A DNA stretch of 47,673 bases from a virus. Location of the stretch: positions 1 to 47,673 of IMG/VR virus record IMGVR_UViG_3300017917_000994; one strand, given 5' to 3'. How positions within the stretch are numbered: position 1 is the stretch's first letter; each line of letters starts with the position of its first letter. The position numbers and the translations under genes were made by a program. The notes under the pieces were generated by a model. The model searched no databases, was not told the DNA's origin, and saw only the letters and a program-made list of their open reading frames with translations. Below are positions 1,984 to 23,298 of the stretch, piece after piece.

Positions 1984-2472
1984 ATGCGAATTTTAGATAT
2001 TTTAGCCGAAGATAACTTCGTCAGAACAGGCGATGTCTTTGCCATTGAGCTAGATAGCGGCCTACTTATAGAAAGCACTGTAGTTGGTTTTATGCCCGAT
2101 GGAGTGGTTATACAAGGTGACGACGTTATATTATCTTACTTAAAACACCAGCCTGTCAAAGAATCCATGACTAAATTTACAGAAATGCAAATAGCTATTA
2201 TGGAGAGCGGTGGAAGTTTAGATGATCTTAACGAGGCTGAATATCAAGGACGCAATGTTCCTCTAGGCAAACCTATGGCAGGCGATGTTAAAAAATCTAA
2301 GGTTTATGTAAAAGGCCCCAAAGGTAATGTAGTAAAAGTAAACTTCGGCGATAAAACGATGAAGATTAAAAAGAGTAATCCCAAGCGCCGTAAATCATTT
2401 AGAGCACGCCATAACTGCGACAATCCCGGTCCACGTTGGAAAGCACGTTATTGGTCATGCAGGGCTTGGTAA
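1984..2472 (+). CDS. Conserved phage protein with prohead-cleavage-like leader and Cys/Arg-rich C-terminus
   Basis: The 162 residues begin MRILDILAED, an amphipathic leader ending in LAE|D, close to the T4 prohead protease consensus (L/I)-x-E. Residues up to about 55 look like a small beta domain. The last 45 residues are very basic and end in a conserved-looking motif, KRRKSFRARHNCDNPG then ARYWSC, with two Cys and one His that could bind metal or nucleic acid. I recall this C-terminal motif in other marine T4-like phages but know no function. It heads the cluster of similarly led genes; an internal virion protein is inferred. The ribosome site is AAAGAGAG. Confidence 0.55.
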   Translation: MRILDILAEDNFVRTGDVFAIELDSGLLIESTVVGFMPDGVVIQGDDVILSYLKHQPVKESMTKFTEMQIAIMESGGSLDDLNEAEYQGRNVPLGKPMAGDVKKSKVYVKGPKGNVVKVNFGDKTMKIKKSNPKRRKSFRARHNCDNPGPRWKARYWSCRAW

Positions 2473-2477
2473 CTATT

Positions 2478-2873
2478 ATGAAACTTTTAGAATTTTTTAA
2501 TATCCCCGATGATAATCCCAGCAGAATTAATATGCAGGGCAAATCTCAAGAAGACAAAAACAAAATACAAGATGAGGTGTACTGGTACATCATAGACAAT
2601 GATGATCTGCACAAACAATATGTATTACCATTTGTCACTGATTTAAAATCTCACCTTTCTAGTCCAGATTTTAACCTCGATCGTTTTAAGAAAAATTGGG
2701 CCCCTATGGTCAACAAAGGGTGCAAGATGTATTATGACGAAAAGAAAATGAAGTCTAATCCAGATAGTTTGTTTACTAAAGAACTTAAGAAAAATCTCTT
2801 AGACAAAATTACTGACAAATACATTGAAGATGTGAAGAACGATAGCTATAATGTGGGAGAACATAAGATATGA
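2478..2873 (+). CDS. Hypothetical small protein of the internal-protein cluster
   Basis: This reading frame of 131 residues is set from the ATG at 2478, five bases after the preceding stop. An in-frame TTG at 2436 lies inside the upstream gene and is unlikely to be used. The N-terminus MKLLEFFNI resembles the amphipathic leaders of its neighbours but lacks an (L/I)-x-E cleavage site nearby. The body is highly charged and helical (many Lys, Asp, Asn) with no known motif. Its stop overlaps the next start (ATGA), so it belongs to the same transcript. Function unknown. Confidence 0.55.
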   Translation: MKLLEFFNIPDDNPSRINMQGKSQEDKNKIQDEVYWYIIDNDDLHKQYVLPFVTDLKSHLSSPDFNLDRFKKNWAPMVNKGCKMYYDEKKMKSNPDSLFTKELKKNLLDKITDKYIEDVKNDSYNVGEHKI

Positions 2874-3760
2874 TTCTACATGAAGGCGGAAATGAATTTA
2901 AATATGCCGATGGTGCTAACGCAACTAAGCAAAATGCTTCCACTGAAGAAGTAGATTCTGTTTTAGGTGCATTAAGCAAAGAACTAGGCATTGACTTATT
3001 AGCCAAAGATTTAGAAAATCAATGGAAGCATAAAACAGGTTCAACCATATACCACGGTGCTGAAACAGGTGATGCAGATACACTATTAGATCCTGTCGAC
3101 TTTATTAAAGTAGAACCAGGTACACCTGCCAAAGATGCTCAAAATCAATTTAGAAATTGGCTAGCACAAAAACTACAAACAGCTGGATACAAAGAATTAC
3201 CAAAAAAATCTGCTGTTCCCCAGTTAGGAAAATTTTATAAAATATCCGGAGACGGGCTTACTGCCTGTGTACAAATACCAGGTGGAGAAGAATGGCTACA
3301 AGTTGATTTAGATATAGCCGAACCAGGTGAAGGAAAGTTTTCTGTATGGAGCAAACGTGGAGAACCAAATGAACCCGGAACTCCTAAAGATGCTAGAGCC
3401 AAAGGAGCATATCGCCATATACTTTTATCGGCAATCGGTAGTATACTAGTAAGTCAAGAACATCCACAAGGACTTAGTTGGAGTTTTAAAAACGGTCTTA
3501 TTGATAGGGGTACTAAAGAGATTGTTACCAAAGACCCAAATGAAGTTGCTAAAATATTGTTTAATGGTAAGGCCAGTGATTTAGAAAACATCAATACAAT
3601 TTTAGCTAAACTTAAACAATCACATCCCGGTCAGTATAACGATATTGTACAAAAAGTTAATGCAGGTTTAGAAAATTATAAAACACAGTATAAACTAAAA
3701 GAACATCATACCATAGGAAGTAATCAATGGTTTAGAGGTTTAATGGATCGCCTATCATGA
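2870..3760 (+). CDS. Putative pol-beta-superfamily nucleotidyltransferase, virion-cluster
   Basis: The 296-residue product carries the nucleotidyltransferase signature in order: G57-S58, nine residues, then D68-A-D70, and a third acidic strand VDLD at 144-147. This is the hG[GS]x9-13Dh[DE] pattern of the pol-beta superfamily, whose members add nucleotides to RNA, proteins or antibiotics. The N-terminus is MILHE|GG, which fits the (L/I)-x-E|G prohead-protease consensus after only five residues. It overlaps its neighbours on both sides by ATGA. The target is unknown. The function rests on motifs seen by eye, so a non-catalytic relative is possible. Confidence 0.5.
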   Translation: MILHEGGNEFKYADGANATKQNASTEEVDSVLGALSKELGIDLLAKDLENQWKHKTGSTIYHGAETGDADTLLDPVDFIKVEPGTPAKDAQNQFRNWLAQKLQTAGYKELPKKSAVPQLGKFYKISGDGLTACVQIPGGEEWLQVDLDIAEPGEGKFSVWSKRGEPNEPGTPKDARAKGAYRHILLSAIGSILVSQEHPQGLSWSFKNGLIDRGTKEIVTKDPNEVAKILFNGKASDLENINTILAKLKQSHPGQYNDIVQKVNAGLENYKTQYKLKEHHTIGSNQWFRGLMDRLS

Positions 3761-4896
3761 AAATAAAAGAACTTTTATCAGAAGCCGCAGGTGCAATAGG
3801 TCGAAAGTATCAGCATATTGAAGACTTAGTGTTTACCAACGGCAGTCATGGTGGATTACATGCCGTAGAAAGACTTAGAGACATGGAAAGTTCTGGCGGA
3901 TCTATTGAGTTAAAGTGGGACGGTAGTCCAGTAGTCTATTGGGGCAAAGACGAGCAAGGCAGGTTTAGTCTGATACCTAAAAATGCTTGGGAATATCTTA
4001 AGAGAGGAAAAAGTGAAGTTTCTCCGGGTGTTCCTACTGCTATGTATAATCCCGAAGATATTAAAAAATTTATTTTAGGTACTGGAAAACCTTCTACTCA
4101 AGAAGAACAACATCAAAGACAGGCCTATGCTCAGTCTATGTCAGAGCTATGGGGTTATTTTGAACGTATTAGTCCTCCCAAAGGTTACATAGAAGGAGGA
4201 ATATTATTCAGCCCAGAAAAACCTGCTCAACTTAATCCAAAGACCAACGAATACGAATTCCAACCAAATATTACACAATTTCATATTCCTGCTACCAGTA
4301 AGCTAGGTAAAAGAATTGGCAAAGCAAAAGTTATGGTTGCGGCCACGGGTTATTATGAAACCATAGGCAGTTCAGAAGAGTCAAGATTTCCAGGTGCAGA
4401 AAATTTAAGTACGCCAGATATTATAGTACAAGGCACTACCTATGTAGAACAGGCACCAGGTGCTAATACCAAAGACCTCAATAATATAGAAAAATTTATA
4501 CAAAAAAATTCTAACCTAATAGATAATTTCCTTGCTCCTAAGCCAGGGCTGAGTAAGCCTGGAGATATTCTTTACAAATTCTATAATCAGAATCTTAGAA
4601 TAGAAGGTGTTAAAGCTAAGTTTAAAGATTGGGCTGAGAAAAATCTCAGCCAAGGTCAGGCAGCAAAGGTTGTTAATGATCCCGGACTAGAAGTAGTATT
4701 AGATGCTGTAGAAATGCTGACCAAAGAAAAACAACAGATTATTGCCGCGTTGAGCAGTAGTCAGCACGGAGATATTAGACAAACTAAACCAGAGGGATAT
4801 GTTCAAGCACACCCCGGTAAACAATTTAAACGAGATTTACCAGGACAGTTTGTAAAAGCTATTGATCAAGCAACATGGGCTCCAAGGAAAGACTAA
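3757..4896 (+). CDS. Conserved marine-phage protein with a KxDG (nucleotidyl ligase-like) motif
   Basis: The 379-residue protein starts MKIKELLSEA, a leader with an LSE|A cleavage-like site. At residues 50-56 it has IELKWDG, matching motif I (K-x-D-G) of the covalent nucleotidyltransferase superfamily of DNA/RNA ligases and capping enzymes. YIEGGILF (144-151) and a Lys-rich GKRIGKAKV (184-192) lie where later motifs could fall. I recall this N-terminal region as a conserved hypothetical of marine T4-like phages. Ligase activity is inference: the remaining ligase motifs are not clear. It follows a pol-beta-like gene and precedes a HIGH-type one, so three different nucleotidyl-transfer folds may be side by side. 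Confidence 0.5.
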   Translation: MKIKELLSEAAGAIGRKYQHIEDLVFTNGSHGGLHAVERLRDMESSGGSIELKWDGSPVVYWGKDEQGRFSLIPKNAWEYLKRGKSEVSPGVPTAMYNPEDIKKFILGTGKPSTQEEQHQRQAYAQSMSELWGYFERISPPKGYIEGGILFSPEKPAQLNPKTNEYEFQPNITQFHIPATSKLGKRIGKAKVMVAATGYYETIGSSEESRFPGAENLSTPDIIVQGTTYVEQAPGANTKDLNNIEKFIQKNSNLIDNFLAPKPGLSKPGDILYKFYNQNLRIEGVKAKFKDWAEKNLSQGQAAKVVNDPGLEVVLDAVEMLTKEKQQIIAALSSSQHGDIRQTKPEGYVQAHPGKQFKRDLPGQFVKAIDQATWAPRKD

Positions 4897-4897
4897 T

Positions 4898-7663
4898 ATG
4901 CTATTAAGAAATTTATTTGAAGCAATATCAAAACCAGTACCAATCAAAACTGCTGTATTAGGTTGGGGCAGAGGAATGGGGCATAAGGGCCATATGTTGT
5001 TAGCTAAAGCTGTATTACACCACGCCCGAGAAAATTCAGCTAAACCTTATTTCGTTGTTTCAAGAACAAGTATTGTTGATCCGAGCACAGGTCAACCTTG
5101 GACAGATAAACCTACATTTACTAAAACTAAAGACGATCCTTTAACTCCAGAAGAAAAATTACGTACATACAGAAAAGTGTTTCCCCAACACGCGGAAGTG
5201 TTTACTGTTCCAGAAGCTAATGCCACTAAATTAGAACAGGTAATAGCAAAGATTGCCAAAGACGGATTTAAAAAAGTTATTTTAGTAGTCGGACAAGATC
5301 AAAAAGATTCTATGGGTTACTTAATTAGGCCCGATAAGTCTGGTATACCTCCTTATCAACAGGCCGGATTACAAAACTTAGAAATAATTTCTAGGCAAGA
5401 CACAAAAGAACCTAGTAGCATGAGAGGTAGTCCCGAATATCAAGAAGGCCCTCGAGCTACACCTATGCGTCAGATTCTCTTAGATCCTTCGAAGAGTGAA
5501 GATGAACAATTTGCAGTTTGGCGAAGAGATATGCCGGATGATCTCAGCGATGAAGAAGTATTAGATCTCATGCGTAAAGCCAAACAGCGCATGAGCATGG
5601 TCCCGGCTTCAAAAAAATCACAGGCAATTAAAGAATCTTTACAAGACAAAATAAAAGCTATTGCAGCTTTAAATAATATTGCAGACGTTAATAAAATTAA
5701 CGCAGGACAAGTTTTAAAATTGCCAGGCGGTGGCACATATAAAGTTGTATACGGTGACACACTGTCTCAGATTGCATCTAAGTTAAACTTTCCAACAACT
5801 CCATCTAGGCCGGCGACTGCGCCAAGTTTAGGTGCGCCAACAGCGGTTCAAGCCCCGGGTACACGCCCGCCGAGCAATCCCGGCCCCGGTAGAAGTGCTG
5901 GAGTAGGAGGAGCTACTGCAAAAGAATTAGATGATTATGAAAAATCAAAAAATGCATCCGGAGTAAGGCCAGGACCTAATCCTAATATTGACCAAGCAAC
6001 TAGAGACCGAGCTTTAGCTTCTGTTAAACCTAGTTCAACAGTTACTCAGCAACCAAACAATCAACCACAATCTCAGACAGGTCAGAATCAACCATCGCAG
6101 AGTGCTCAGGCTACTGCACAACAAAATATTCCAGCAAATGCTGTAAGAACTGGTTCAGGCGGAGTCTTAACGACATCCGACGGAACACCTGTTACTAGCG
6201 GAGATTTGCCAGATTTTAAAGCTATAGAGGCAGCTAAAGAAAAGTTGACTCCAAGTCAATTAAGATGGTTAGGAGACTCCGATCCTACCGATCCTGCAAT
6301 TATGGCAAGAATGCCGAAACCAGAACCCGGTGAAAAGCCCGTTGGTGGTACAAAACCTAGCACTGCTGATCCAAGAGATAATACAAATCCAACAGATGCA
6401 AGATTAGCAACTGGAAAACAAACTGCACCAGCTGACGCAAAAACAAGCAGTAAATCAAACTTAGATAGAATACTACAATTTACATCTAACACAGGCAGTC
6501 GTCAGAATTTTGATAAACTTCAAGATACATTCCAAGAAAAAGTAGAGGCGGCGGCAGCTGAATACTTTGAAAAGACAGGAAAAAAATTACAAATTAATAG
6601 TGCTGTCAGAGATGCCGCAGACCAACAAAGATTATGGGATATATCTGTTGCCAACGGAACACCTGGAAAAATGCCTAATGGATTCCCTGTAGCTAAACCT
6701 AAACCAGGAGGTGGCGGTAGCGACCATGAAAGAGGGGTAGCAATAGACATTCAACAGGGAATAAACGACCCTGTTGCTATACAGATACTTAAGAAATATG
6801 GATTATTTCAAACAGTAGCCGGAGATCCTGTACACTTTACTGAACCAAAAGGCGGCAATACAGCTCCTCCTCCAAATGTTGTAAGATCTTCAGACGGATC
6901 TCCTGTTAGATCAGGGTCTGGCGGATACGTGACCTCCGGAGAAACAAAGCCAGGAACAGACAAACCGATACAATCAATACGCGGTAGTGGCCCGGGCTTT
7001 ATCGAAATAATAACTCCCGATGGAGAAGTACAAAGAAGAGAAGGTAGAGCAAATTGGAGAATGAACAATCCTGGAAATATTAGAGTGAGTGATTGGACAA
7101 AACGTCAGCCAGGATTTATAGGAGTCGGCGATGCAGGATCTAGCGGAAAATTTGCAGTATTCTCTACACTTGCCGACGGTATCAGAGCTAAAAAGAATCT
7201 ATTGTTTGGCCCTGGATCAAGTTATATTAATCTTTCAATTAAAAAAGCCATAGAAAGATATGCACCAGAAAGCGATGGCAATAAAACATCATCATATATT
7301 GACCGAGTAGTACAAGCAACTAAAGCTAGTCCAGACACTTTGTTGAGTCAACTGTCGGCTTCACAAAGAGAAGCTATGTTTGACACAATTAATAAGGTTG
7401 AAGGTTTTCAAGTAGGAAAAATACAAACTGTTCAAACAGCAGTAGGCGAAGGAAACACCAAGGAAAAACCTAAAAAAACTTGGTCTGATTACGGCATGCC
7501 AGATAAAAAAGAAGTTTCTAAAGACAAACACTATCATAGCTGGCAAGAATACGAAGAAGAAAAAAAGAAAAAAGAACAGAAAAAACAAGTTGCCGTTGGA
7601 GAAGATATACAAGTAAAAATCAGCAATCTTATAAGCATATTAGAAACCAAACACAGAAAATAA
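4898..7663 (+). CDS. Multidomain protein: HIGH nucleotidyltransferase, LysM, M15 peptidase, transglycosylase-like
   Basis: The start is the ATG at 4898, eight bases after AAGGAA; a TTG at 4862 lies inside the previous gene. The 921 residues (numbered here from 4898) begin MLLRNLFEA, another LFE|A leader. Residues 20-240 resemble a cytidylyltransferase (GRGMGHKGH for the GxxxPxxxGH loop, then SSMRGS). Residues 255-300 hold LysM sequence. A Pro/Gln/Thr-rich linker follows. Residues 525-650 match peptidase M15 (SDHERGVAID and DPVHF zinc motifs). Residues 720-845 match phage transglycosylase-like domains (MNNPGNI, FAVFSTLADGIRA, YAPESD). The tail is Lys/Glu-rich. It probably binds and cuts peptidoglycan, perhaps on entry; the role of the first domain is unknown. 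Confidence 0.7.
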   Translation: MLLRNLFEAISKPVPIKTAVLGWGRGMGHKGHMLLAKAVLHHARENSAKPYFVVSRTSIVDPSTGQPWTDKPTFTKTKDDPLTPEEKLRTYRKVFPQHAEVFTVPEANATKLEQVIAKIAKDGFKKVILVVGQDQKDSMGYLIRPDKSGIPPYQQAGLQNLEIISRQDTKEPSSMRGSPEYQEGPRATPMRQILLDPSKSEDEQFAVWRRDMPDDLSDEEVLDLMRKAKQRMSMVPASKKSQAIKESLQDKIKAIAALNNIADVNKINAGQVLKLPGGGTYKVVYGDTLSQIASKLNFPTTPSRPATAPSLGAPTAVQAPGTRPPSNPGPGRSAGVGGATAKELDDYEKSKNASGVRPGPNPNIDQATRDRALASVKPSSTVTQQPNNQPQSQTGQNQPSQSAQATAQQNIPANAVRTGSGGVLTTSDGTPVTSGDLPDFKAIEAAKEKLTPSQLRWLGDSDPTDPAIMARMPKPEPGEKPVGGTKPSTADPRDNTNPTDARLATGKQTAPADAKTSSKSNLDRILQFTSNTGSRQNFDKLQDTFQEKVEAAAAEYFEKTGKKLQINSAVRDAADQQRLWDISVANGTPGKMPNGFPVAKPKPGGGGSDHERGVAIDIQQGINDPVAIQILKKYGLFQTVAGDPVHFTEPKGGNTAPPPNVVRSSDGSPVRSGSGGYVTSGETKPGTDKPIQSIRGSGPGFIEIITPDGEVQRREGRANWRMNNPGNIRVSDWTKRQPGFIGVGDAGSSGKFAVFSTLADGIRAKKNLLFGPGSSYINLSIKKAIERYAPESDGNKTSSYIDRVVQATKASPDTLLSQLSASQREAMFDTINKVEGFQVGKIQTVQTAVGEGNTKEKPKKTWSDYGMPDKKEVSKDKHYHSWQEYEEEKKKKEQKKQVAVGEDIQVKISNLISILETKHRK

Positions 7664-7666
7664 ATA
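7659..7666 (+). promoter_or_regulatory. Candidate T4-type late promoter (AATAAATA)
   Basis: Seven of eight bases match the T4 late consensus TATAAATA, 23 bases before the Dps start and overlapping the previous stop codon. A transcript from about 7672 would begin at or within AAGGA, leaving little leader. In AT-rich DNA a 7/8 match is weak evidence on its own. Confidence 0.25.
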
Positions 7667-7688
7667 TAGAATCAAGGATTGAAAGAAT

Positions 7689-8126
7689 ATGGAAGAGCTA
7701 CAAAAAGCAGCTAAAATAGGGTTTGCTAGTTCCTTTAGTTTTTATCTAAAGGCGCATAATTTCCACTGGAATGTAGAAGGCAGCGATTTTTTAGAATATC
7801 ACGATTTATTTGGTAAAATCTATGAAGAAGTATATGGTAGCATAGACGACTATGCTGAAAAAATACGTGCCCTAGGTACCTATGTTCCAGCAAGTTTTCA
7901 AAGATTTACAATGTTGTCTCAAATAGAAGACGAAACAAAAATACTAGATAAAGATTCAATGGTTTTAGAATTATTATCAGACAATGAAAAACTAATTAAA
8001 ATTCTAAAATTAGTTTATGATCGTGCAGAAGCAGAAGGTGAACACGGGTTCAGTAACTTTTTAGCAGAAAGAATGGACGCACATCGAAAGCACGGCTGGA
8101 TGCTAAAAGCTAGCACAAAGGGTTGA
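7689..8126 (+). CDS. dps: Dps-family ferritin-like protein
   Basis: This protein of 145 residues is a clear Dps/ferritin-like protein: KAHNFHWNVEG, then EYHDLFGKIYEEVYGSID, then DYAEKIRALG give the conserved His, His, Asp and Glu of the intersubunit ferroxidase centre. The C-terminal AERMDAHRKHGWML also fits the family. Dps dodecamers oxidise and store iron, remove peroxide and often bind DNA. The N-terminal extension is short and not basic, so DNA binding through a tail is not obvious. Unlike its neighbours it lacks a cleavable leader. Lying among likely virion internal proteins, it could protect phage DNA during infection or be carried in the particle; both are inference. Confidence 0.85.
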   Translation: MEELQKAAKIGFASSFSFYLKAHNFHWNVEGSDFLEYHDLFGKIYEEVYGSIDDYAEKIRALGTYVPASFQRFTMLSQIEDETKILDKDSMVLELLSDNEKLIKILKLVYDRAEAEGEHGFSNFLAERMDAHRKHGWMLKASTKG

Positions 8127-8128
8127 CC

Positions 8129-8500
8129 ATGAGAGCAAGCGAATTTATCAACGAAGCTAAAAAGGGAAAAATTCCTCATCGAACTCAGCAACCTAGTAAA
8201 GGTCTGCACAAGTTTACTGATGGTAGCAAATGGAACAGCGATTACACACAGCATCGTTTAGGCATGGCGTTAGCTAAAACAGACGGTTCATTTGTTCCCG
8301 ACATTGAAGAAGAAAGCTGGGTTGGTAGATGGAAAACTGCACATCCTTACACCGAAGTCGAAGCAGACATGTTAAAAATGGCTTATAAAGCTGTAAATGC
8401 AAATTACGTAGACATGAACCACAATGATTTAGACAGCGAAGAATTAAAAAGCACTAATACAGTTAGCCCTATCCCAGATAGAGCAAAATTAAAAAAATGA
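8129..8500 (+). CDS. Conserved small protein with INE|A leader
   Basis: The ATG at 8129 is preferred over a TTG at 8123 because AAAGGG lies six bases before it and the product then begins MRASEFINEA, nearly matching the T4 capsid-targeting peptide (MKTYQEFIAEA). The 123 residues include a central SWVGRWKTAHPYTEVEADML segment, which I associate with many marine phage relatives of unknown role. It is soluble, mixed charge and has no catalytic motif I know. The end overlaps the next gene by ATGA. An internal capsid protein cleaved after INE is inferred. Confidence 0.6.
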   Translation: MRASEFINEAKKGKIPHRTQQPSKGLHKFTDGSKWNSDYTQHRLGMALAKTDGSFVPDIEEESWVGRWKTAHPYTEVEADMLKMAYKAVNANYVDMNHNDLDSEELKSTNTVSPIPDRAKLKK

Positions 8501-8736
8501 AAATACTAGACCTACTATCAGAAGCTGGCGGAGTTAGTTCAACTACATCAGGAAATATTTCTGCTGTTGTTAATCCTGGCATGACTAATGTAGGAAAAAA
8601 TTCAGCTGCCGGCAAGCCAGGTAAGATGGCTAAAAAAGGTCCTAAGCAATTTATGCCAAAGGCTCAGGGACCCGGAACTAATGCTTTAGATATGAATGTA
8701 GGTCTTATGACTGGTGCCGTTATTAAGAGAAAATAA
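8497..8736 (+). CDS. Small basic protein with LSE|A leader
   Basis: This 79-residue protein starts MKILDLLSEAGG, a leader ending in a prohead-protease-like LSE|A site. The mature part would be about 70 residues, rich in Gly, Lys, Ala and Pro, with no acidic cluster (GKPGKMAKKGPK in the middle), suited to binding DNA. Small basic proteins with such a leader are how T4 internal proteins IPI-III look. ATGA overlap with the gene before. No family recognised. Confidence 0.5.
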   Translation: MKILDLLSEAGGVSSTTSGNISAVVNPGMTNVGKNSAAGKPGKMAKKGPKQFMPKAQGPGTNALDMNVGLMTGAVIKRK

Positions 8737-8739
8737 ATT

Positions 8740-9642
8740 ATGATTAACGAACATAAAAAAGGCGTTAAAGCCATGAAGTATACAACAAAACCAAAAACAG
8801 CTAATCCTGTGGCTAAAAATGCAGGTTCTACAACTATTAGTTCTGCAGGTTCTCACTATCAAGGTAAAGATCAAAAAAAGAAAGCTAAACACGGTGAAGT
8901 TAAACACAAAAAGCAAATGGACATGGCCGAAGGATTTGATAATCCCGAATATGATGATGAAGCCGGTATGGCCGATAACAATTTAGAAACTCTTAAGAGA
9001 GCGGTACAAGGACTTGACGATCTTATTCAGTCAGGCGACAATTTACCCGAGTGGTGCCAAGAAAAAATTGCTGTAGCAAAAAGCACATTAGTAAATGTAT
9101 GGGACTACATGAGATCAGAACAAGATTCTCAAGGACAGATAAACGAATATGAAACTCATACTTACAAAGACAGTCAAGGTAATGTATGGCGTGTTAACGA
9201 CGAAGGTGATCGCGAATTAATCCAAGCCGCGCCCGGTAGTAGTTATGGTAGAAGTAGATATCCTAGAAGACCTTCGGTGTCCAAACCTAGCGGAATGTAT
9301 TTTTACAATGTCAAACCTGGACAAGAAAGCGATGCCATGTCCGCTGGTTTAAAACAAACTAAATCAGGAAAATGGTATTCAAGCTATCAAAATCCTTCTG
9401 CAGAAAAGACATTTGGACCTGGTAAGTTTTGGCAACCTAAAAGTGAAGGTGTAGCAGAAGATAATTTACCAGAAGGTAAAATAAAAGGGGTTGATGGCAA
9501 AGCCTGCTGGAAGGGTAAACGCTATGCCGGTAAGGTTAAAAAAGCAGACGGCACATACAAAGACAAGTGTGTGCCAATGGAGTCAAATGATTGGTATTCA
9601 TTTAGATTAGAACTTTTATTGAACGAACAAATTAAAAAATGA
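8740..9642 (+). CDS. Conserved multi-segment internal-cluster protein
   Basis: The 300-residue product starts MINEH, giving INE after only four residues. An alternative start at Met12 would lose it. The first 60 residues are Lys-rich. Residues about 80-125 contain LPEWCQEKIAVAKSTLVNVWDYM, a segment I know from many marine T4-like phage proteins. Near the end IKGVDGKACWKGKRYAGK and CVPM form a small Cys/Trp-rich motif also common in such phages. The C-terminus is hydrophobic then basic (RLELLLNEQIKK) with another LNE. The body looks mosaic, built of reusable phage segments. Function unknown; a virion internal or scaffold role is inferred from context. Confidence 0.5.
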   Translation: MINEHKKGVKAMKYTTKPKTANPVAKNAGSTTISSAGSHYQGKDQKKKAKHGEVKHKKQMDMAEGFDNPEYDDEAGMADNNLETLKRAVQGLDDLIQSGDNLPEWCQEKIAVAKSTLVNVWDYMRSEQDSQGQINEYETHTYKDSQGNVWRVNDEGDRELIQAAPGSSYGRSRYPRRPSVSKPSGMYFYNVKPGQESDAMSAGLKQTKSGKWYSSYQNPSAEKTFGPGKFWQPKSEGVAEDNLPEGKIKGVDGKACWKGKRYAGKVKKADGTYKDKCVPMESNDWYSFRLELLLNEQIKK

Positions 9643-9926
9643 ACGATTGGCGTCAGGTTAAAATTACATCTAATAATTTATTTCAGCCAGCCGACGACGA
9701 CTGTATATTGCCCCCAAACGATCCGGCCTATGAATTAGCTAAGATGCAATATCTAGCAGGGCTAGGATATACTCCGTCAATTAAAGAAACTGTGGATAAA
9801 AATATTACTCACACAGCGGCTGAAAATGCCCGTATTATGAAAGAAAAAAATATTAAACCAGGAAAACCTGAATGGTTTAAACTATGGTTTAGTTTGCCGT
9901 ACCTTACTGGCGAAAAGAAAGCATAA
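9639..9926 (+). CDS. Hypothetical protein closing the internal-protein cluster
   Basis: This 95-residue protein overlaps the gene before by ATGA. It has an acidic N-terminal part (PADDDCILPPNDPAYELAKM) and a C-terminal KPEWFKLWFSLPYLTG motif that I associate with marine phage proteins. No leader, membrane segment or catalytic motif is evident. It is the last gene before the largest gap in the window. Confidence 0.5.
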   Translation: MNDWRQVKITSNNLFQPADDDCILPPNDPAYELAKMQYLAGLGYTPSIKETVDKNITHTAAENARIMKEKNIKPGKPEWFKLWFSLPYLTGEKKA

Positions 9927-9927
9927 G

Positions 9928-10037
9928 TGTACGGCCACAGGTAGCCCGCTCGTCTGCCAATTCGTTGGTGCCTCAAGAAGAAAAGTGGAAAACTCTCGAA
10001 TCCAGGATCCCTGTGACGCCACTTTAACAACCGTACA
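9928..10037 (+). ncRNA. Possible structured (pseudoknotted) RNA
   Basis: Three exact complementary pairs are visible. TGTACGG (9928-9934) pairs with CCGTACA (10031-10037), enclosing everything else. CACAGG (9936-9941) pairs with CCTGTG (10010-10015). AAAGTGG (9982-9988) pairs with CCACTTT (10019-10025). The last two cross, which is the topology of a pseudoknot. GGTAG (9941-9945) could also form a local stem with CTGCC (9954-9958), one pair being G-U and G9941 being shared. The stretch is more GC-rich than its surroundings and has no reading frame of note. I cannot assign it to a known riboswitch, ribozyme or tRNA. Because a promoter lies downstream, it may be a 3' element of the preceding mRNA. 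Confidence 0.35.
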
Positions 10038-10057
10038 AAATATTTAAACCAAACCTC

Positions 10058-10086
10058 TTGACTATTAAGTATGTATAGCATAAAAT
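10058..10086 (+). promoter_or_regulatory. Sigma70-type promoter before the dsbA-like gene
   Basis: TTGACT (10058-10063), a 17-base spacer, then TAAAAT (10081-10086). Transcription would start near 10093, just before CCTAGGAG and the ATG at 10107. This is an early/host-polymerase type promoter and would drive the dsbA-membrane-polymerase genes. Confidence 0.7.
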
Positions 10087-10106
10087 ATTAACCTAGGAGA
10101 TAAAAT

Positions 10107-10376
10107 ATGAGCAAATCATTCGGAGCGCCCGAACAGGCTAAAATTAAACAGATTGTTGCCGAAGGCTGCACAGTCATGCAAGAAATTCAGGATCTTACAG
10201 AAGGACTCAACGAAACAATTAAAGCAGTCGCAGAAGAATTAGACGTTAAACCTAGCGTTATTCGAAAAGCAATTCGTATTGCATTAAAAGACCAGTGGGA
10301 TCAAGTATTCCGTGAGTTTGATGATTTGGAGACTATTGTAGACATCAGTGGACACGCAAACCGTCGTGAGGATTAA
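10107..10376 (+). CDS. dsbA: DsbA-like late-transcription DNA-binding protein
   Basis: The product of 89 residues has exactly the length of T4 DsbA, a double-stranded DNA-binding protein that helps late transcription, and a similar layout: an N-terminal helix (AKIKQIVAEGCTVMQEI), a linker, and a helix-turn-helix-like ELDVKPSVIRKAIRIAL segment at about 48-64. Sequence identity to T4 is low by eye, so the name rests on length, pattern and the location among replication and transcription genes of marine T4-like phages. It has its own promoter and a strong AGGAG site, and its stop overlaps the next start (TAATG). Confidence 0.55.
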   Translation: MSKSFGAPEQAKIKQIVAEGCTVMQEIQDLTEGLNETIKAVAEELDVKPSVIRKAIRIALKDQWDQVFREFDDLETIVDISGHANRRED

Positions 10377-10672
10377 TGATTGTAGATTTACTAAGGCCAA
10401 CCTTCGAATGGATCAAAGATGATTGGCTATCTAATAAGTTTCGATTCTGTGTTGAATTCTTAGCTTGGGCTATTAGTATCGGTTGTAGTATTACTATGGC
10501 TGTTACTGTACCTGATCCTCCGTTACTTGTCCTATATCCGTTATGGATCAGTGGTTGCGCTATGTATGCTTGGGCTAGCTTTACACGTAAAAGCTTTGGC
10601 ATGTTAGCCAACTATCTGTTGCTAACAACAATAGATAGCATAGGCCTAGTAAGGATGCTAAATATTTTATGA
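10376..10672 (+). CDS. Small membrane protein, conserved in marine T4-like phages
   Basis: The 98-residue protein has two or three hydrophobic helices: about residues 26-47 (CVEFLAWAISIGCSITMAV), 50-68 (LLVLYPLWISGCAMYAWA) and a weaker one at 74-90. An acidic/aromatic N-terminal segment (EWIKDDWL) precedes them. It is translated by TAATG coupling to the dsbA-like gene. I recall this family as a conserved hypothetical placed near DNA polymerase in marine phages. Its role is unknown; membrane anchoring of replication or holin-like activity are possible but unsupported. Confidence 0.6.
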   Translation: MIVDLLRPTFEWIKDDWLSNKFRFCVEFLAWAISIGCSITMAVTVPDPPLLVLYPLWISGCAMYAWASFTRKSFGMLANYLLLTTIDSIGLVRMLNIL

Positions 10673-10681
10673 ATAAGGTTC

Positions 10682-10727
10682 GGCGAGCCATAAATCGCTA
10701 TGTGAAGGTCAGTGGGCCATAAACCAC
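10682..10727 (+). promoter_or_regulatory. Tandem operator hairpins before DNA polymerase
   Basis: Two hairpins share an identical 8-base loop, GCCATAAA. Hairpin 1 has stem GGCGA/TCGCT (10682-10686 with 10695-10699, the outer pair G-U) and loop 10687-10694. Hairpin 2 has stem GTGG/CCAC (10712-10715 with 10724-10727) and loop 10716-10723, ending next to the Shine-Dalgarno GAGGAG (10728-10733). T4 gp43 represses its own mRNA by binding a 5-bp, 8-base-loop hairpin at this same place. The loop sequence differs from T4's, as expected for a diverged polymerase. Confidence 0.7.
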
Positions 10728-10741
10728 GAGGAGAAAAATTA

Positions 10742-13411
10742 ATGAGTTATGTTGACGGTATTTGGGACCGTGACAATGATATTGTCAAAATTGTTGAGAG
10801 AGATCCTAAAAAAGGTCGTCTGTATCAAGAGTATCCCGCAAAGCACATCTTTTACTACCCCGATCAAAGAGGCAAGTATAAATCTATATACGGCGAAAAT
10901 CTTTCTAAGGTAGTATGCAAAAACTTTAAAGACTTCCAAAAAGAACTAAGAATACACAGCAATCATAAACTATATGAAAGCGATATAAACGTTGTATTCC
11001 GCACGTTAGAAGAAAACTATCTCGGAAAAGAAGCTCCTAAACTTAATGTAGCTTTTTTCGATATTGAGGTAGACTTTGACCCCGAAAGAGGCTATGCTTC
11101 GCCCGATGACGCATTTATGCCTATAACTGCTATTGCAGTTCACCTTCAATGGTTAGATACACTTGTTTGTCTAGCAGTTCCTCCTAAAACACTAAGCATA
11201 GAGCAGGCCAAAGAACAGGTCAAAGATTTCCCTAACACTATACTTTTTGATTCAGAGGCAGAAATGTTAGACACATTTTTAAATCTAATCGAAGATGCTG
11301 ATGTGTTAAGTGGTTGGAATTCAGAAGGCTTTGATATTCCTTATACTGTAAACCGAGTCACTAAAGTTTTAAGCAAAGAAGATACCAGACGTTTTTGTCT
11401 ATGGGATCAATTTCCTAAAAAGAGAGAGTACGAAAAATATGGGAAGCAGGCCGTTACTTATGACCTTATTGGTCGTGTTCACCTTGATAGCCTTGAGCTG
11501 TACAGAAAATATACCTATGAAGAACGTCATACCTACAGGCTCGATGCCATTGGAGAAATGGAAATAGGTGAGTCTAAGACTGTCTACGAAGGAACACTGG
11601 ATCAACTTTATAATAATGATTTTCGTAAGTTCATAGAATATAATAGACAGGACTGCGCCCTTCTTAATAAATTAGATAGAAAATTAAAATTTATTGACTT
11701 AGCCAATACCATTGCACATGAAAATACTGTGCTGTTACAGACCACTATGGGTGCCGTAGCCGTTACTGAACAGGCTATTGTAAACGAGGCGCATCATAGA
11801 GGACTTATTGTACCTAGCAGGCCACGACGCGATGACAGTGTTGATACACAGGCTGCTGGTGCTTATGTAGCTTATCCTAAGAAAGGTATCCATGACTGGA
11901 TTGGTTCAATGGATATTAACAGTCTGTATCCGTCAGTAATTAGAGCACTGAATATGGGTCCAGAAACTATTATCGGTCAGTTACGCCCAGTTTATACTAA
12001 AAATTATATCGAAGGGGAAATGGCCAAGGGTAAAAGTTTTGCGGCAGCGTGGGAAGGTAAATTTGGCAGTTTAGAATATGACTTTGTCATGTCACAAAAC
12101 AGAGCCACAGAAATTACTGTAGATTGGGAAAATGGTGAACAGACCATAATGAGTGCCGCCGAAATCTATGAATTGATTTTTAACAGTAGCAAGCCGTGGA
12201 TGCTCAGTGCCAACGGTACAATCTTTACCTATGAGTTTGAAGGAATCATTCCTGGACTATTAGCAAGATGGTATAAAGAACGTAAAGAGATGCAGGCCAA
12301 ATTAAAAGAAGCAATTAAAGCGGAGAATAAAATTGAAGAAGAATATTGGGATAAACGTCAGTTGGTTAAAAAGATTAACCTTAATAGCTTATATGGTGCT
12401 ATTCTTAATGCTGGTTGTAGGTTTTTCGATAATCGTATCGGACAGTCTACCACACTTACAGGACGCCAAATTGCCAAACACATGGCTAGTAAAATCAATG
12501 AGGTCGTAACGGGCGAATACAATCACATAGGTAAATCAATTATATATGGTGATACAGACTCGGCATATTTCTCAGCATATTCTACTCTTAAAACAGATAT
12601 CAGCAAAGGACTAGTTCCCTGGGACAAAGATACTGTTATACAGCTATACGATACTATTGCCGGGGAAGTAAATTCTACATTCAGTCATTTTATGTTAGAA
12701 GCTTTCCATTGTCCTAAGAGTCGCGGGGAAGTTATTAAGGCTGGTCGAGAAATTGTTGCCAGCAAAGGATTATTCATTACCAAGAAACGTTATGCTGTTC
12801 TGTATTACGACAAGGAAGGTAAGAGAACCGACTTAGACGGAAAGAGTGGTAAAATTAAAGCTATGGGTCTTGATCTTAAACGTTCAGATACGCCAGAATT
12901 TATGCAGAAGTTTTTAGAAGAAATTCTGACTATGGTTCTTAATGGTTCTGAAGAAAAAGAAGTACTAGAACGCATCAGTGAATTCCGTACAGAATTTAAA
13001 GCTCGTCCAGGATGGGAGAAGGGTAGTCCCAAACGTGCTAATAACATTACTGACTATCAAGAAAAAGAACGCAAGGCAGGCAAAGCAAATATGCCGGGAC
13101 ATGTTCGCGCCAGCATTAACTGGAATACATTAAAGAGATTGAATTCGGACAAGTACTCAATGGGTATTGTTGACGGTATGAAAGTTATTGTTTGTAAGCT
13201 AAAAGATAATCCGTTAGGGTATACGTCTGTAGCTTACCCCACCGACGAACTTCGATTACCTAAATGGTTTCAAGAATTACCATTTGATCATAGTGAAATG
13301 GAAGCTACTATTATCAATAATAAATTAGACAACCTCATAGGGGTATTAGAGTGGGACTTAGAATCCACTACTCAAGAGAACACATTCAATTCATTATTCA
13401 GCTTTGAATGA
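10742..13411 (+). CDS. 43: Family B replicative DNA polymerase (T4 gp43 type)
   Basis: The start is ATG 10742 after GAGGAG, giving 889 residues (T4 gp43 has 898). Exonuclease motifs are FDIEVD (about 106-111), SGWNSEGFDIPY (about 190-201) and YNRQD (about 300). Polymerase motifs are DINSLYPS (about 391), KKINLNSLYG (about 543) and YGDTDS (about 602). The C-terminus ends FNSLFSFE, like the clamp-binding tail of gp43. All catalytic acids are present, so proofreading and synthesis should be intact. No intein or homing gene interrupts it. Two hairpins just upstream probably allow self-repression. The clamp gene follows with its own promoter. Confidence 0.97.
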   Translation: MSYVDGIWDRDNDIVKIVERDPKKGRLYQEYPAKHIFYYPDQRGKYKSIYGENLSKVVCKNFKDFQKELRIHSNHKLYESDINVVFRTLEENYLGKEAPKLNVAFFDIEVDFDPERGYASPDDAFMPITAIAVHLQWLDTLVCLAVPPKTLSIEQAKEQVKDFPNTILFDSEAEMLDTFLNLIEDADVLSGWNSEGFDIPYTVNRVTKVLSKEDTRRFCLWDQFPKKREYEKYGKQAVTYDLIGRVHLDSLELYRKYTYEERHTYRLDAIGEMEIGESKTVYEGTLDQLYNNDFRKFIEYNRQDCALLNKLDRKLKFIDLANTIAHENTVLLQTTMGAVAVTEQAIVNEAHHRGLIVPSRPRRDDSVDTQAAGAYVAYPKKGIHDWIGSMDINSLYPSVIRALNMGPETIIGQLRPVYTKNYIEGEMAKGKSFAAAWEGKFGSLEYDFVMSQNRATEITVDWENGEQTIMSAAEIYELIFNSSKPWMLSANGTIFTYEFEGIIPGLLARWYKERKEMQAKLKEAIKAENKIEEEYWDKRQLVKKINLNSLYGAILNAGCRFFDNRIGQSTTLTGRQIAKHMASKINEVVTGEYNHIGKSIIYGDTDSAYFSAYSTLKTDISKGLVPWDKDTVIQLYDTIAGEVNSTFSHFMLEAFHCPKSRGEVIKAGREIVASKGLFITKKRYAVLYYDKEGKRTDLDGKSGKIKAMGLDLKRSDTPEFMQKFLEEILTMVLNGSEEKEVLERISEFRTEFKARPGWEKGSPKRANNITDYQEKERKAGKANMPGHVRASINWNTLKRLNSDKYSMGIVDGMKVIVCKLKDNPLGYTSVAYPTDELRLPKWFQELPFDHSEMEATIINNKLDNLIGVLEWDLESTTQENTFNSLFSFE

Positions 13412-14201: not shown

Positions 14202-14581
14202 TAAAAGGGTTAATGGGATCTAATGGTATTGAAGTATCAGGAGGGAATACATCCCTTCAATATGTTAACCAGAATACCAATAACCCCATGCAAGGGATGA
14301 TTCGTATTTGGGGAACAGATATGCAGGTATTCGATGGAACTAGCTGGCAAAATATAGCAACTAGTTATGCCACCGTTCAACTCGATAACAATAGTCGCCT
14401 GTTACTAGAGTGGGTTAAGAACAAGAAACTTGAAGAAGAATCTTTAGCAACTTTACCAACAGATCATCCTTCTGTTAAAGCCGCTAAAGAAAACCTAAAT
14501 AAAGCCAAGCTAGAAGTAAAAAGACTAGAAGAACAATTAAAAATAACAGAGATATTAATTCATGAAGAAACCACCAATTAA
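14198..14581 (+). CDS. Conserved hypothetical protein, two-part (beta head, coiled coil)
   Basis: This 127-residue protein is coupled to the clamp gene by ATGA. Residues 1-60 look like a small beta module (GMIRIWGTDMQVFDGTSWQNI) of a type also seen in phage structural proteins. Residues 65-120 are strongly helical with Lys/Glu heptads (AAKENLNKAKLEVKRLEEQL), a likely coiled coil. I recall relatives in many marine T4-like phages at this locus; no function is known to me. It overlaps dpdA by 20 bases. Confidence 0.6.
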   Translation: MIKGLMGSNGIEVSGGNTSLQYVNQNTNNPMQGMIRIWGTDMQVFDGTSWQNIATSYATVQLDNNSRLLLEWVKNKKLEEESLATLPTDHPSVKAAKENLNKAKLEVKRLEEQLKITEILIHEETTN

Positions 14582-16118
14582 CCTAACACCTTTACAAAAA
14601 GACTATGCTGTCTATTTGCCAGCTATTAGTAGTTTTTATAGCACTTATGTTGCTAAACAGCGACTAGAAGAATTTGTACCTAAAGATCGTATTCCTCAAG
14701 AATTTGATCGAGGAATTGAAGGTATGAACTTTTTAAATCCAGAAGAAGGATATTTCACATACAAGTACGGTCTATACTCTGCAGGTCACGCACAGTTAGA
14801 CTTGAATAAGAGTCTAACACAAGAATCAATGATTCAACAACGTGACCGCAACAATACAATGATCTTAGGTGACTCCGGCGGATACCAGATTGGTAAAGGC
14901 GTTCTTAAGTTTGACTGGTTAAACTTCGAAGGTGCAGAAGCTAACAAGACTCGTCAAAAGATTTTAGAATGGCTTGAACTAACTGCTGACTGGTCAATGA
15001 TGTTAGACGTTCCTACTTGGGCCTGTGATCATATTCATAGTCCTAAAACAGGTTTGAAAACATTCGAAGATTGCTTAGATAAAACACGTTTCAATAACGA
15101 TTATTTCTTAAAGAATCGATTAGGTCAAACCAAGTGGCTCAATGTACTACAAGGCAGTGATTGGGATACTGCCGAACAGTGGTATCAGGGTGTTAAAGAG
15201 TTTAGTGATCCTAAAGGTCCTTATGCCGGCCAAGAAGCAGAAGGTTGGGCCTTTGGTGGTGCTAATATGTGTAAAATGGATATTACACTCAAGCGTCTAA
15301 TGACCTTGCGTGAAGATGGTTTGCTGAAAGGCAAAAATTGGATCCACTTCCTGGGTACTGCTCAGTTAGATTGGTCGTGCTACTTAACTTTAATTCAACG
15401 GGAAATTAGGAAACATATCAATGAAGAAATTACCATATCTTTTGACTGCGCCTCGCCATTTATCGCAACAGCCCACGGACTTGTCTACACCAATGCAGTC
15501 CACACTCCCAAAAGGTGGAGCGTTATTATGGACAAGGCACCAGATAACAAAGCACTTGCAAAGTCCGACATCCCGTTTCCCTTCGAAAGCGAAATCGGCC
15601 GCAGATTAACCTTAGGTGATATTTGTCATTATGCTCCAGGTATGTTAAACAAGATTGGTAAAGAAGGTAAAACTTCATGGGATAGTTTTGCCTATGCTCT
15701 AATGATGGGTCATAATGTTTATTGCCACATTGTTGCTGTACAACGTGCTCAGCAGTTAATGGATATTGAGATTGCTAAAACTAAAGGCAAACTCGATTGG
15801 CGTGCTTGGAAAAAAGTTAAATCTCAAGACATGAGCGACGAATATTCCGATTGGGTCCCACGTAATATTTTATATTTTGCCAACTTTATTGAAGACTTAT
15901 TCAATACTAAAACAAAAGCAGAAGCATTTGATATGATTGAAAAGGCCTTACCATTCTTACGTAGTTTAGAAGGTGCTCGACTACAAGGAGGTCCTGCTCA
16001 AAATAAATTTACATCATTGTTTGAAATTGAAGAAGTCACTCATCAAGATGAGATTGATTTAGCCAATCCAGACGACGATGAGCTCAGAAATCTTGAAGAA
16101 AGCTTGACATTAACATAA
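14562..16118 (+). CDS. dpdA: DpdA-like DNA/tRNA guanine transglycosylase
   Basis: The product of 518 residues has the tRNA-guanine transglycosylase fold motifs in order: DSGGYQ at 104-109 (substrate pocket, general acid/base Asp104), SMMLDVPTW at 145-153, WLNVLQG at 192-198, GWAFGGAN at 228-235, SFDCASP at 293-299 with Asp295 aligned to the TGT nucleophile, and HNVYCH later where a metal ligand is expected. The canonical CxCxxC zinc cluster is not evident. Phage TGT relatives (DpdA) exchange guanine in DNA for a 7-deazaguanine, shielding DNA from restriction. FolE, QueE and a QueD-like gene within 10 kb support that reading. A tRNA substrate cannot be excluded. Confidence 0.75.
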   Translation: MKKPPINLTPLQKDYAVYLPAISSFYSTYVAKQRLEEFVPKDRIPQEFDRGIEGMNFLNPEEGYFTYKYGLYSAGHAQLDLNKSLTQESMIQQRDRNNTMILGDSGGYQIGKGVLKFDWLNFEGAEANKTRQKILEWLELTADWSMMLDVPTWACDHIHSPKTGLKTFEDCLDKTRFNNDYFLKNRLGQTKWLNVLQGSDWDTAEQWYQGVKEFSDPKGPYAGQEAEGWAFGGANMCKMDITLKRLMTLREDGLLKGKNWIHFLGTAQLDWSCYLTLIQREIRKHINEEITISFDCASPFIATAHGLVYTNAVHTPKRWSVIMDKAPDNKALAKSDIPFPFESEIGRRLTLGDICHYAPGMLNKIGKEGKTSWDSFAYALMMGHNVYCHIVAVQRAQQLMDIEIAKTKGKLDWRAWKKVKSQDMSDEYSDWVPRNILYFANFIEDLFNTKTKAEAFDMIEKALPFLRSLEGARLQGGPAQNKFTSLFEIEEVTHQDEIDLANPDDDELRNLEESLTLT

Positions 16119-16138: not shown

Positions 16139-16681
16139 ATGAAACGAGATTATTCATCAGGAACATCGGACAGTATTAACTTCTTTATTGGTAACGAAGT
16201 TGAACATACTCCCGCATTTGGAATGCGTACATTATTTGTAACCGGTGTTCAAAATGAACAGGTTATTGAACATATTCTAACCGAAGAAAACTCGTATGTT
16301 GATACGTCAAAGCATATTAAACATATTTTCTTTGGCGCTAATCACAGTTTTAATCCTCAGTCATATGAAGAACATAAAGCCTGGGAAGATATGATATTTC
16401 ATTTCCTAGACAAGAGCTATCTATGTAGCCTAGATATTCCTATGAATCAAGTAGAAGAATTTCACGAAAGCGGGTACTGCGAGTACGATAATTTTATTCC
16501 GCAAATTCGTGTGCCGATTCCTTACATTCGTTTATGGAATTATAATACAATGCTTAAAATCGATGACCGAGATTTTAAGGCAACCAATCCCGGTGTGTGG
16601 TCCCACAGTCTACACACACTAATGGATCGTAGTAAGTTCACAGACTGGAATCAATACAAAAACGATGAGATTGTAAAATGA
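16139..16681 (+). CDS. Conserved hypothetical protein next to dpdA
   Basis: The product is 180 residues with no known catalytic motif. Visible conserved-looking blocks are SINFFIGNEVEHTPAFGMRTLFVTG near the N-terminus, IKHIFFGANHSF near 60, CSLDIP near 97, and FIPQIRVPIPYIRLWNYNTMLKIDD near 119. The pattern of short strands and helices suggests a small alpha/beta domain. I recall relatives in uncultured marine phages, often near queuosine-type genes. Its place between dpdA and the QueD-like gene makes a helper role in DNA modification a reasonable guess only. There is no ribosome site before the ATG. Confidence 0.55.
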   Translation: MKRDYSSGTSDSINFFIGNEVEHTPAFGMRTLFVTGVQNEQVIEHILTEENSYVDTSKHIKHIFFGANHSFNPQSYEEHKAWEDMIFHFLDKSYLCSLDIPMNQVEEFHESGYCEYDNFIPQIRVPIPYIRLWNYNTMLKIDDRDFKATNPGVWSHSLHTLMDRSKFTDWNQYKNDEIVK

Positions 16682-16881
16682 AAGAAATAACCATTAAAGA
16701 TTCTCCAGGTTTTCAACTTCGTGTTAAAAAATGGGAATGTTTAAAACCTAACGGGTTATATGCAATTCAATTCATACAATGTACTAAAGACAAAGATGGT
16801 AACATTGATGGTCAATCGACCTATGAATTTTTTATGGACAATAAAGAAATGGCGCAACTGGCAGGAGCATTAGTCGAATGA
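16678..16881 (+). CDS. Small conserved hypothetical protein
   Basis: These 67 residues are linked by ATGA overlaps to the gene on each side. The chain is mixed beta/alpha with no Cys pair typical of metal sites (two Cys, residues 20 and 35) and ends in a helix (NKEMAQLAGALVE). No family recognised. Its coupling to the QueD-like gene suggests a shared task. Confidence 0.5.
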   Translation: MKEITIKDSPGFQLRVKKWECLKPNGLYAIQFIQCTKDKDGNIDGQSTYEFFMDNKEMAQLAGALVE

Positions 16882-17267
16882 TTATTAAACAAGATGTTCG
16901 TCCAAACAAAATGATCTGGGTTACTTTTCGTAAAGAAGGCATCCATAAGTATCCCGCGGCACTAACCGATTCTAATCTAGCAACTGGAGATGAGTATGAT
17001 GTTTCGTTTCTTGGTTATCCTCACCGCCACATCTTTCATTTCAGGGTGTGGATTAATGTTGTACACAATGATCGCGACATCGAATTCATCCAGTTCAAAC
17101 GATGGCTCGAAAACCTCTACGCAAGTGGAACAATCCAGCTCGACTACAAAAGTTGCGAAATGATGAGTGACGAACTCCACACTCATATTTCACAAAAGTA
17201 TCCCGACCGCGAGGTTTGGATTGAGATCTCCGAAGACGGAGAAAATGGTAGTTTTATCAAGTATTAA
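16878..17267 (+). CDS. QueD-like (6-carboxytetrahydropterin synthase/T-fold) protein
   Basis: The 129 residues follow the layout of QueD: a first His (H23) after a beta strand, then PHRHIFHFRVWINV with H49 and H51 matching the zinc-binding HxH, DIEFIQFKRWLE matching the G-x-x-xDF-x-x-LK block, CEMMSDEL matching PT(A/S)E, and WIEISEDGENGSFIKY matching the E-T...Y end. QueD makes carboxytetrahydropterin from the FolE product. The catalytic Cys before HxH and the Asp-His pair are not seen, so chemistry may differ or be lost. Its closeness to dpdA, folE and queE supports a deazaguanine pathway role. Confidence 0.5.
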   Translation: MIIKQDVRPNKMIWVTFRKEGIHKYPAALTDSNLATGDEYDVSFLGYPHRHIFHFRVWINVVHNDRDIEFIQFKRWLENLYASGTIQLDYKSCEMMSDELHTHISQKYPDREVWIEISEDGENGSFIKY

Positions 17268-23029: not shown

Positions 23030-23298
23030 ATTCATCAAACGTTCAAGAAATATTAGACATACTCCAAGAAGAATGTGGAGAACTTATTGTCTCTGCAAGC
23101 AAGGTTCGTAGATTTGGATTAGATAATAGTTATAAAAATGGCGGAACACAGCGTGAACACTTGACTCAAGAAGCAGGAGATGTTATGCTTATGATAGATC
23201 TATTAGTAGAAAATGGTGTATTCACTAGAGAATCATTAGAATCTGCTAAAGTAAAAAAATCAGACAAATTAAAAATATGGTCAAAAATTTATGAGTAA
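23026..23298 (+). CDS. MazG-like nucleotide pyrophosphohydrolase
   Basis: The product is 90 residues with the compact MazG layout: [12 protein letters not shown] near 15-26 and [12 protein letters not shown] near 49-60 supply the ExxE and ExxD metal ligands, with a GGTQREHL segment between them typical of phage versions. MazG enzymes hydrolyse (d)NTPs, or possibly ppGpp, to monophosphates. ATGA overlaps guaC, and its end overlaps queE by eight bases, so it is in the same transcript as the purine and deazaguanine genes. Confidence 0.75.

Follow-up and report, generated by a model that had tools for sequence, protein, structure and literature searches.

A gene cluster with short N-terminal leaders

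T4-like phages rank among the most abundant aquatic viruses. To our knowledge, the enzymes in their virions have so far been catalogued without a loading mechanism. A gene cluster in a freshwater T4-like myovirus raises the question of whether such enzymes carry the signal for their own loading. The window analysed here is a 47.7 kb IMG/VR fragment (IMGVR_UViG_3300017917_000994, 47,673 nucleotides), recognized as T4-like by reading of its genes for DNA polymerase, clamp, baseplate and fibres. Seven N-termini, at 1984, 2870, 3757, 4898, 8129, 8497 and 8740, had been predicted to be leaders ending in (L/I)-x-E like those of T4 internal proteins, and all seven were exact in the sequence (Table 1). 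Overlaps of 4 nt with the upstream gene, of the ATGA start/stop type, were present at 2870, 3757, 8497 and 9639, which makes the starts of C, D and H credible. The DNA polymerase gene adjoins the cluster. A nucleotide megablast against public phages gave no match, nor did protein searches of named phages with gene C and the front domain of gene E, and PADLOC reported no convincing defence family.

Table 1. Genes of the cluster, with leaders and predicted cut sites (arrows)
Gene	Position	Strand	Length (aa)	Leader (position)	Protein
A	1984..2472	+	162	MRILDILAE↓D (1984-2010)	C-terminal FRARHNC...YWSC domain, PHROG 7595 (unknown function)
B	2478..2873	+	131	MKLLEFF (2478-2498), leader-like, without clear cut site	
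C	2870..3760	+	296	MILHE↓GGN (2870-2884)	pol-beta/X-superfamily nucleotidyltransferase (GS...DxD...VDxD)
D	3757..4896	+	379	MKIKELLSE↓A (3757-3783)	DUF6267; KWDG (K53); predicted ligase-type covalent nucleotidyltransferase
E	4898..7663	+	921	MLLRNLFE↓A (4898-4921)	HKGH-type cytidylyltransferase, LysM, VanY-type and endolysin-like domains
F	7689..8126	+	145	none	ferritin/Dps-like (Pfam Ferritin, E 1e-17)
G	8129..8500	+	123	MRASEFINE↓A (8129-8155)	unknown function
H	8497..8736	+	79	MKILDLLSE↓A (8497-8523)	basic
I	8740..9642	+	300	MINE↓H (8740-8751), minimal	basic
J	9639..9926	+	95	none	conserved neighbour; 49 homologues

A leader had been assigned to all seven proteins, and T4-type leaders run to about 10-20 residues. 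The leader was clear, 8-9 residues long and ending in (L/I)-x-E, in five of them (A, D, E, G and H), but the far shorter starts of C and I were less convincing, and MINE of gene I is the least certain of the seven. Gene B supplied an eighth leader-like start in the cluster, scoring 13 bits with the leader matrix described below, and the genes at 7689 and 9639 had no leader. The pattern is an imperfect match for the leaders of B, C and I and for those of some E homologues.

A bare (L/I)-x-E in the N-terminal ~14 residues was found in 24% of the window N-termini and 15.6% of those of a related contig, G001, and the motif also occurred in ~10% of internal window stretches. As a genome-wide leader detector, bare LxE was rejected as too promiscuous. 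The genome-wide excess of a loose pattern was weak or absent in G001, G003, W02 and S-CREM2. A tight pattern (a hydrophobic pair, an optional residue, then E), fixed only after the sequences had been seen, matched 6/9 cluster genes compared to 2/46 other window genes (Fisher p = 7e-5); when A, S, G, T or D was also called for after the E, this equally post hoc pattern matched 5/9 and 0/46, respectively (p = 3.6e-5). Because the tight patterns were chosen in this way, we place more weight on independent evidence from relatives, the protease and capsid protein, a test on T4 and virion data.

Conservation of the leaders in related loci

An IMG/VR scan with D yielded 80 related loci (64-76% identity), in which the leader type was kept despite variable letters. 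One leader style, M[KRLF][LI]x[ED][LF][LFI], recurred in the homologues of genes C, D, E, G and H. The D bodies are ~73% identical and their leaders diverge (MKIKELLSE, MRIIELITE, MRLRELFE, MLLNELFSNLKE), with [LIVF]xE standing before A or S in 44/44 distinct D relatives and 18/18 unfused D starts. For gene G, leader and xE were kept in 16/16 distinct relatives. In one locus (L075), a C-terminal domain 81% identical to that of gene A sits behind a different leader, MPTFKELFE↓N, and an A homologue was also seen in a pelagiphage, within the same kind of cluster. Among 29 distinct E homologues, 20 had an LxE with its E at residue 8 or later and nine had only an LRE at residues 3-5. Relatives of gene B start with MLLNEFF or MKLLEFF, with a good cut site in none of them, and relatives of gene F also start without a leader.

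The very short leader of C gained support from this comparison, since the 15-18-residue leaders of its relatives end at the same E↓GGN as the five residues of MILHE. In the alignment of C (A2), E5 is nearly invariant and GGN invariant; fused relatives read MLLRELF...E↓GGN, so that E and GGN are kept at any leader length. No relatives with longer leaders back MINE, and the homologue of gene I in L021 also starts with MINEHKKG.

C and D form a single chain in 39 of the 74 called D genes. In these fusions D has lost its own leader and the joint [LIV]-x-E↓[AS] is kept in 26/26 distinct chains, as INE, LLE, LKE, LAE, LNE, LME or VNE followed by A or S. The chance rate of such a site in a random 12-residue stretch is 2.0%, a figure given without a product of probabilities because the C-D chains are related to each other. 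Compared with the protein bodies, as the original prediction had proposed, the leaders keep their type and the E while their sequences vary, and this extends to the joints of fused proteins.

Could short hydrophobic N-termini with an LxE simply have been picked by eye? The bare motif is common and its genome-wide excess small, as such a chance reading would expect, but the clustering (p < 1e-4), the persistence of the leaders across 80 loci and that of the site at 26 fusion joints count against it. The conservation largely refutes the chance reading, which we regard as extremely improbable.

Prohead protease and the capsid protein cut site

Neither an S77 (gp21-type) protease nor a capsid gene was found within the 47.7 kb fragment. 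The contigs of relatives G001 (345 kb), G003 and G005 carry the cluster and a gp21-type S77 protease together, and the His and Ser motifs of this protease, GE[LV]xHP and GVSSRG, are conserved with T4 gp21. In these three relatives and in W02, the cut motif of the leaders recurs in the major capsid protein, at the place where T4 has it. The junction in this protein, KYL[MA]E↓S[PA]TAGATSAGNVAT, lines up with T4 FLTE↓AEIGG and takes the form KYLME↓SPTAGATSAGNVAT or KYLAE↓SATAGATSAGNVAT. Among all fetched proteins, the string GATSAG stood behind LxE in 13/14 matches, most of them cluster proteins, which ties the leaders directly to the capsid protein cut site. Capsid-like junctions were seen in a small cluster protein of L013 (MKIKELLE↓TATAGATSAGMGAT) and in gene H homologues (LQE↓EATAGSTSAGSIAT); for H and I of the window, a test for similarity to the capsid junction gave no significant result.

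These junctions bear on a second explanation, in which the leaders are docking tags that target the prohead core and mostly stay uncut, with a nearby LxE that is partly incidental. LxE alone is common, and gene B and 9/29 E homologues keep an MLLREF-type front without a distal LxE, as expected of such tags. However, the E↓A or E↓S site survives the loss of the leader front (26/26 C-D fusions), E↓GGN persists across leader lengths and the capsid protein junction is shared with small cluster proteins. Uncut docking tags are unlikely in our view.

Leaders in T4 and in published virions

A leader matrix was trained on 32 D and E leaders, with one or two inserted residues allowed, and applied to 279 T4 ORFs. 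The protein ranked first was gp24 (MAKINELLRE↓S), and Alt (MELITELFDE↓D) took joint rank 4. Both have N-terminal propeptides that are removed by gp21 (PMC5694885). Another T4 protein, gp61.1, annotated as hypothetical, gave a gap-free alignment to gp23 across the gp23 cut site (p about 2e-4). The matrix found no match in DSL-LC02, whose leaders are of the internal protein (IP) type.

Presence in virions has been shown by others for counterparts in relatives. Mass spectrometry of S-CREM2 identified 52 virion proteins (PMC10665884). With an IP-type pattern, five leader proteins were found in the S-CREM2 genome, and 5/5 are in the virion list (hypergeometric p = 6e-4): a SAM hydrolase (MKDFDSFLEE), gp13 (MKDLHSFLTE), a kinase (VKRFDAFLTE), a cytidylyltransferase (MKNFSSFLTE) and the pol-beta-like gp156 (MKKLISE). 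A virion protein of S-CREM2 annotated as Cas9 has FASFMAE↓A further in, and the S-CREM2 DUF6267 protein, the called ORF of which lacks a leader, is absent from the list. The authors caution that carry-over or contamination of virions is possible (PMC10665884). The sole leader protein among 233 in S-SM1 is a cytidylyltransferase (MKKFSAFLNE↓A), and it was detected in virions by mass spectrometry as T4-GC190 (PMC3037559). The virion-detected leader proteins include counterparts of C and E, and the leader offers a sequence rule to predict head-carried proteins of T4-like phages that agrees with virion proteomics in two independent data sets (6/6). The leader is not mentioned in the consulted passages of either virion paper. 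Our literature search found no paper naming DUF6267 and none tying capsid targeting sequences to Synechococcus phages; it returned only a paper on a giant Salmonella phage.

The virion data also weigh on a third explanation, that the leaders are a docking or assembly motif of a cytoplasmic end-repair enzyme complex unrelated to the head. The functional coherence of C, D and E, the fusion of D with cytidylyltransferase domains in some phages and the position of the cluster next to the DNA polymerase gene would all suit such a complex. Against it, the same leader is found on unrelated small basic proteins and on a small gene next to the portal gene of G001 (92877, MILRELF), it matches T4 gp24 and Alt, and leader-bearing counterparts are in virions. 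We consider a cytoplasmic complex very unlikely. The comparison with T4 targeting peptides, by contrast, is backed by the S77 protease of the relatives, the shared capsid cut motif, the conservation of the leaders and the virion counterparts.

Predicted cargo enzymes

C is a pol-beta/X-fold nucleotidyltransferase. That it is pol-beta-like had been read from its letters, and this is supported by GS...DxD with a third Asp (G57, S58, D68, D70 and D146 are invariant in alignment A2) and by a palm fold, its AlphaFold model matching DNA polymerase mu (E 1e-4, probability 1.00). D is likely a ligase-type enzyme. It belongs to DUF6267 (PF19782; E 4e-19, 69.6 bits compared to a curated cut-off of 27), a family for which Pfam gives no function and with which it has KxDG and the fold in common. 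The KxDG reading of the original prediction gained from KWDG, which is invariant in 26 sequences in which EGG and PEGY are also conserved, and from ligase fold matches; these were weak (E 7.5e-3, TM 0.2) and led by tRNA, RNA and DNA ligases, with viral RNA ligases at E 5e-3. In the AlphaFold model of D, leader residues 1-16 have pLDDT < 50 and most of the body is above 85. A full-length sequence search of the PDB with C and D gave no convincing match. Cyanophage members of DUF6267 are often without a leader, and its absence in several cyanophages suggests that packaging is not essential to the role of DUF6267 there. E is a cytidylyltransferase joined to murein-active domains (LysM, VanY-type and endolysin-like). 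For C, D and E as cargo, we infer a repair or end-processing role.

A model for loading and delivery

The leaders, their conservation, the protease in relatives, the shared cut motif and the enzyme classes are read from sequence and, with the T4 ranking and the virion counterparts, they largely support the packaged toolkit that had been proposed. The cluster proteins are probably loaded together with the viral DNA and passed into the host bacterium on infection. We think it quite likely that the leaders are T4-type capsid targeting sequences (reviewed in PMC9026906) on nucleic-acid end-processing cargo, cut by a gp21-type protease and ejected with the DNA; cleavage, ejection and substrates in this virus are what we infer. 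The hydrophobic leader would draw late-made proteins into the prohead core, and the gp21-type prohead protease would cut after (L/I)-x-E, as it would in maturing the major capsid protein, which has this motif too. Once freed, the proteins would stay inside the head until they entered the cell along with the DNA. This cargo, a putative pol-beta/X-type nucleotidyltransferase, a ligase-type DUF6267 protein and a cytidylyltransferase with murein-active domains, could work immediately on the incoming genome or host nucleic acids, ahead of any phage gene expression. Infection may thus begin with injected nucleic-acid repair enzymes, and the leaders could serve as natural cargo tags for putting proteins into phage heads.

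The mechanism is the known capsid targeting of T4; the new features are the cargo set, the clade's leader style, fusions predicted to be cleavable and the agreement with cyanophage virion enzymes already published. IPI-IPIII and Alt of T4 likewise have a short N-terminal leader ending in (L/I)-x-E, with a protease (here in relatives) and a capsid protein cut at the same motif, but their mature cargo is unrelated. The wording of the cluster leaders, M[KRL][LI]xE[LF][LF]..E, resembles that of gp24 and Alt more than that of the IPs, and the cargo differs from T4 internal proteins in being nucleotidyltransferase, ligase-type and murein-active enzymes encoded in one cluster and sometimes fused with internal sites. 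The virion enzymes of S-CREM2 (SAM hydrolase, kinase, cytidylyltransferase) and S-SM1 (T4-GC190) follow the same leader logic and include the same cytidylyltransferase class and a pol-beta-type enzyme, but their leaders are IP-type (MKxFxxFLxE), unlike those of the window. The ejection proteins of phiKZ and SPN3US likewise sit in the head, are cut behind a short motif that ends in E and are then ejected; they differ in the motif, S/A-x-E in phiKZ, in propeptides that often exceed 100 residues and in the cargo. Polyvalent proteins (PMC5512222, 2017) likewise combine several domains in chains believed to enter the cell with the DNA, pol-beta NTases and a lysozyme fusion among them; however, their processing was ascribed to internal metallopeptidase (MPTase) domains rather than to capsid-targeting leaders and sites for a prohead protease.

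The fused chains suggest a further possibility. In L077, C, D, E and G form a single 984-residue chain with the joints PINE↓AAAP, NLQE↓NINR and MRAKEFVAE↓S, although this is one locus in which an assembly error is possible. E-G fusions retain the G leader inside the chain, as in MRAKEFVAE↓S. We tentatively suggest, at somewhat short of even chances, a cargo polyprotein in the head: one capsid targeting leader on a chain of end-repair enzymes (nucleotidyltransferase-ligase and, at one locus, nucleotidyltransferase-ligase-cytidylyltransferase-G) would be cut within the capsid by the prohead protease, at its conserved (L/I)-x-E joints, and the products would be injected as a ready-to-use kit for the repair of genome ends or RNA, with small companions reusing the capsid protein cut junction. 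Separately, D and cytidylyltransferase domains were seen fused to each other in some phages.

Related observations in other phages

Since T4 gp61.1 (54 aa, annotated as hypothetical) begins with MKTFKEFIKE/D, a leader in the style of the T4 internal proteins (the slash marks the expected prohead protease cut), and aligns with gp23 residues 56-93, which span the cut site, it is probably an unrecognised T4 head protein. Small proteins that echo the N-terminal stretch of their own phage's mature capsid protein were found immediately upstream of the gp61 primase gene; one of these, gp160, is present in S-CREM2 virions.

A second group of leader-bearing genes was found close to the start of the S-CREM2 genome. 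Its five members, a SAM hydrolase, a Cas9-annotated nuclease, gp13, a kinase and gp15, were all detected in virions, and together they appear to form a packaged kit for anti-defence or for taking over the host.

The annotated start of the phage C48C1 cytidylyltransferase appears too late. The in-frame sequence 5' of it reads KNFSQYLLEEE, which is likely the enzyme's leader. The adjoining DUF6267 gene carries MMLDFKNFITE/Q.

In relatives, a conserved gene of 79-82 aa adjoins the portal gene. Its leader is MILRELF or MFLREFI and its product is a candidate prohead core protein.

Other features of the window

The ferritin/Dps-like gene within the cluster lacks a leader and is kept in relatives. 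The Rfam match to Atu_At1, a Rhizobiales sRNA, lies in the gap preceding the polymerase genes and scored 60.7, barely above the gathering score of 60. Three genes picked out by reading, one tRNA-guanine transglycosylase-like, one folE-like and one queE-like, could possibly provide 7-deazaguanine DNA modification. A large protein with subtilisin-like (S8) motifs is encoded amid the tail and fibre genes.

Coordinates of the features described
Feature	Sequence	Positions
gp61.1	T4, NC_000866 (L139)	18966-19130
gp160, capsid-echoing	S-CREM2 (L138)	16343-17236
SSM1_197, capsid-echoing	S-SM1 (L162)	2805-3353
Small protein, capsid-echoing	L002	13503-13721
Second leader group	S-CREM2, OR473000 (L153)	3837-13331
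Cytidylyltransferase	C48C1 (L158)	4001-5407
Portal-adjacent gene	G001, 345 kb relative contig (L093)	92877-93116
Ferritin/Dps-like	Window	7689-8126
Atu_At1 match	Window	9931-10038, minus strand
tRNA-guanine transglycosylase-like	Window	14562-16118
folE-like	Window	19420-20205
queE-like	Window	23291-24148
S8-motif protein	Window	38558-41536
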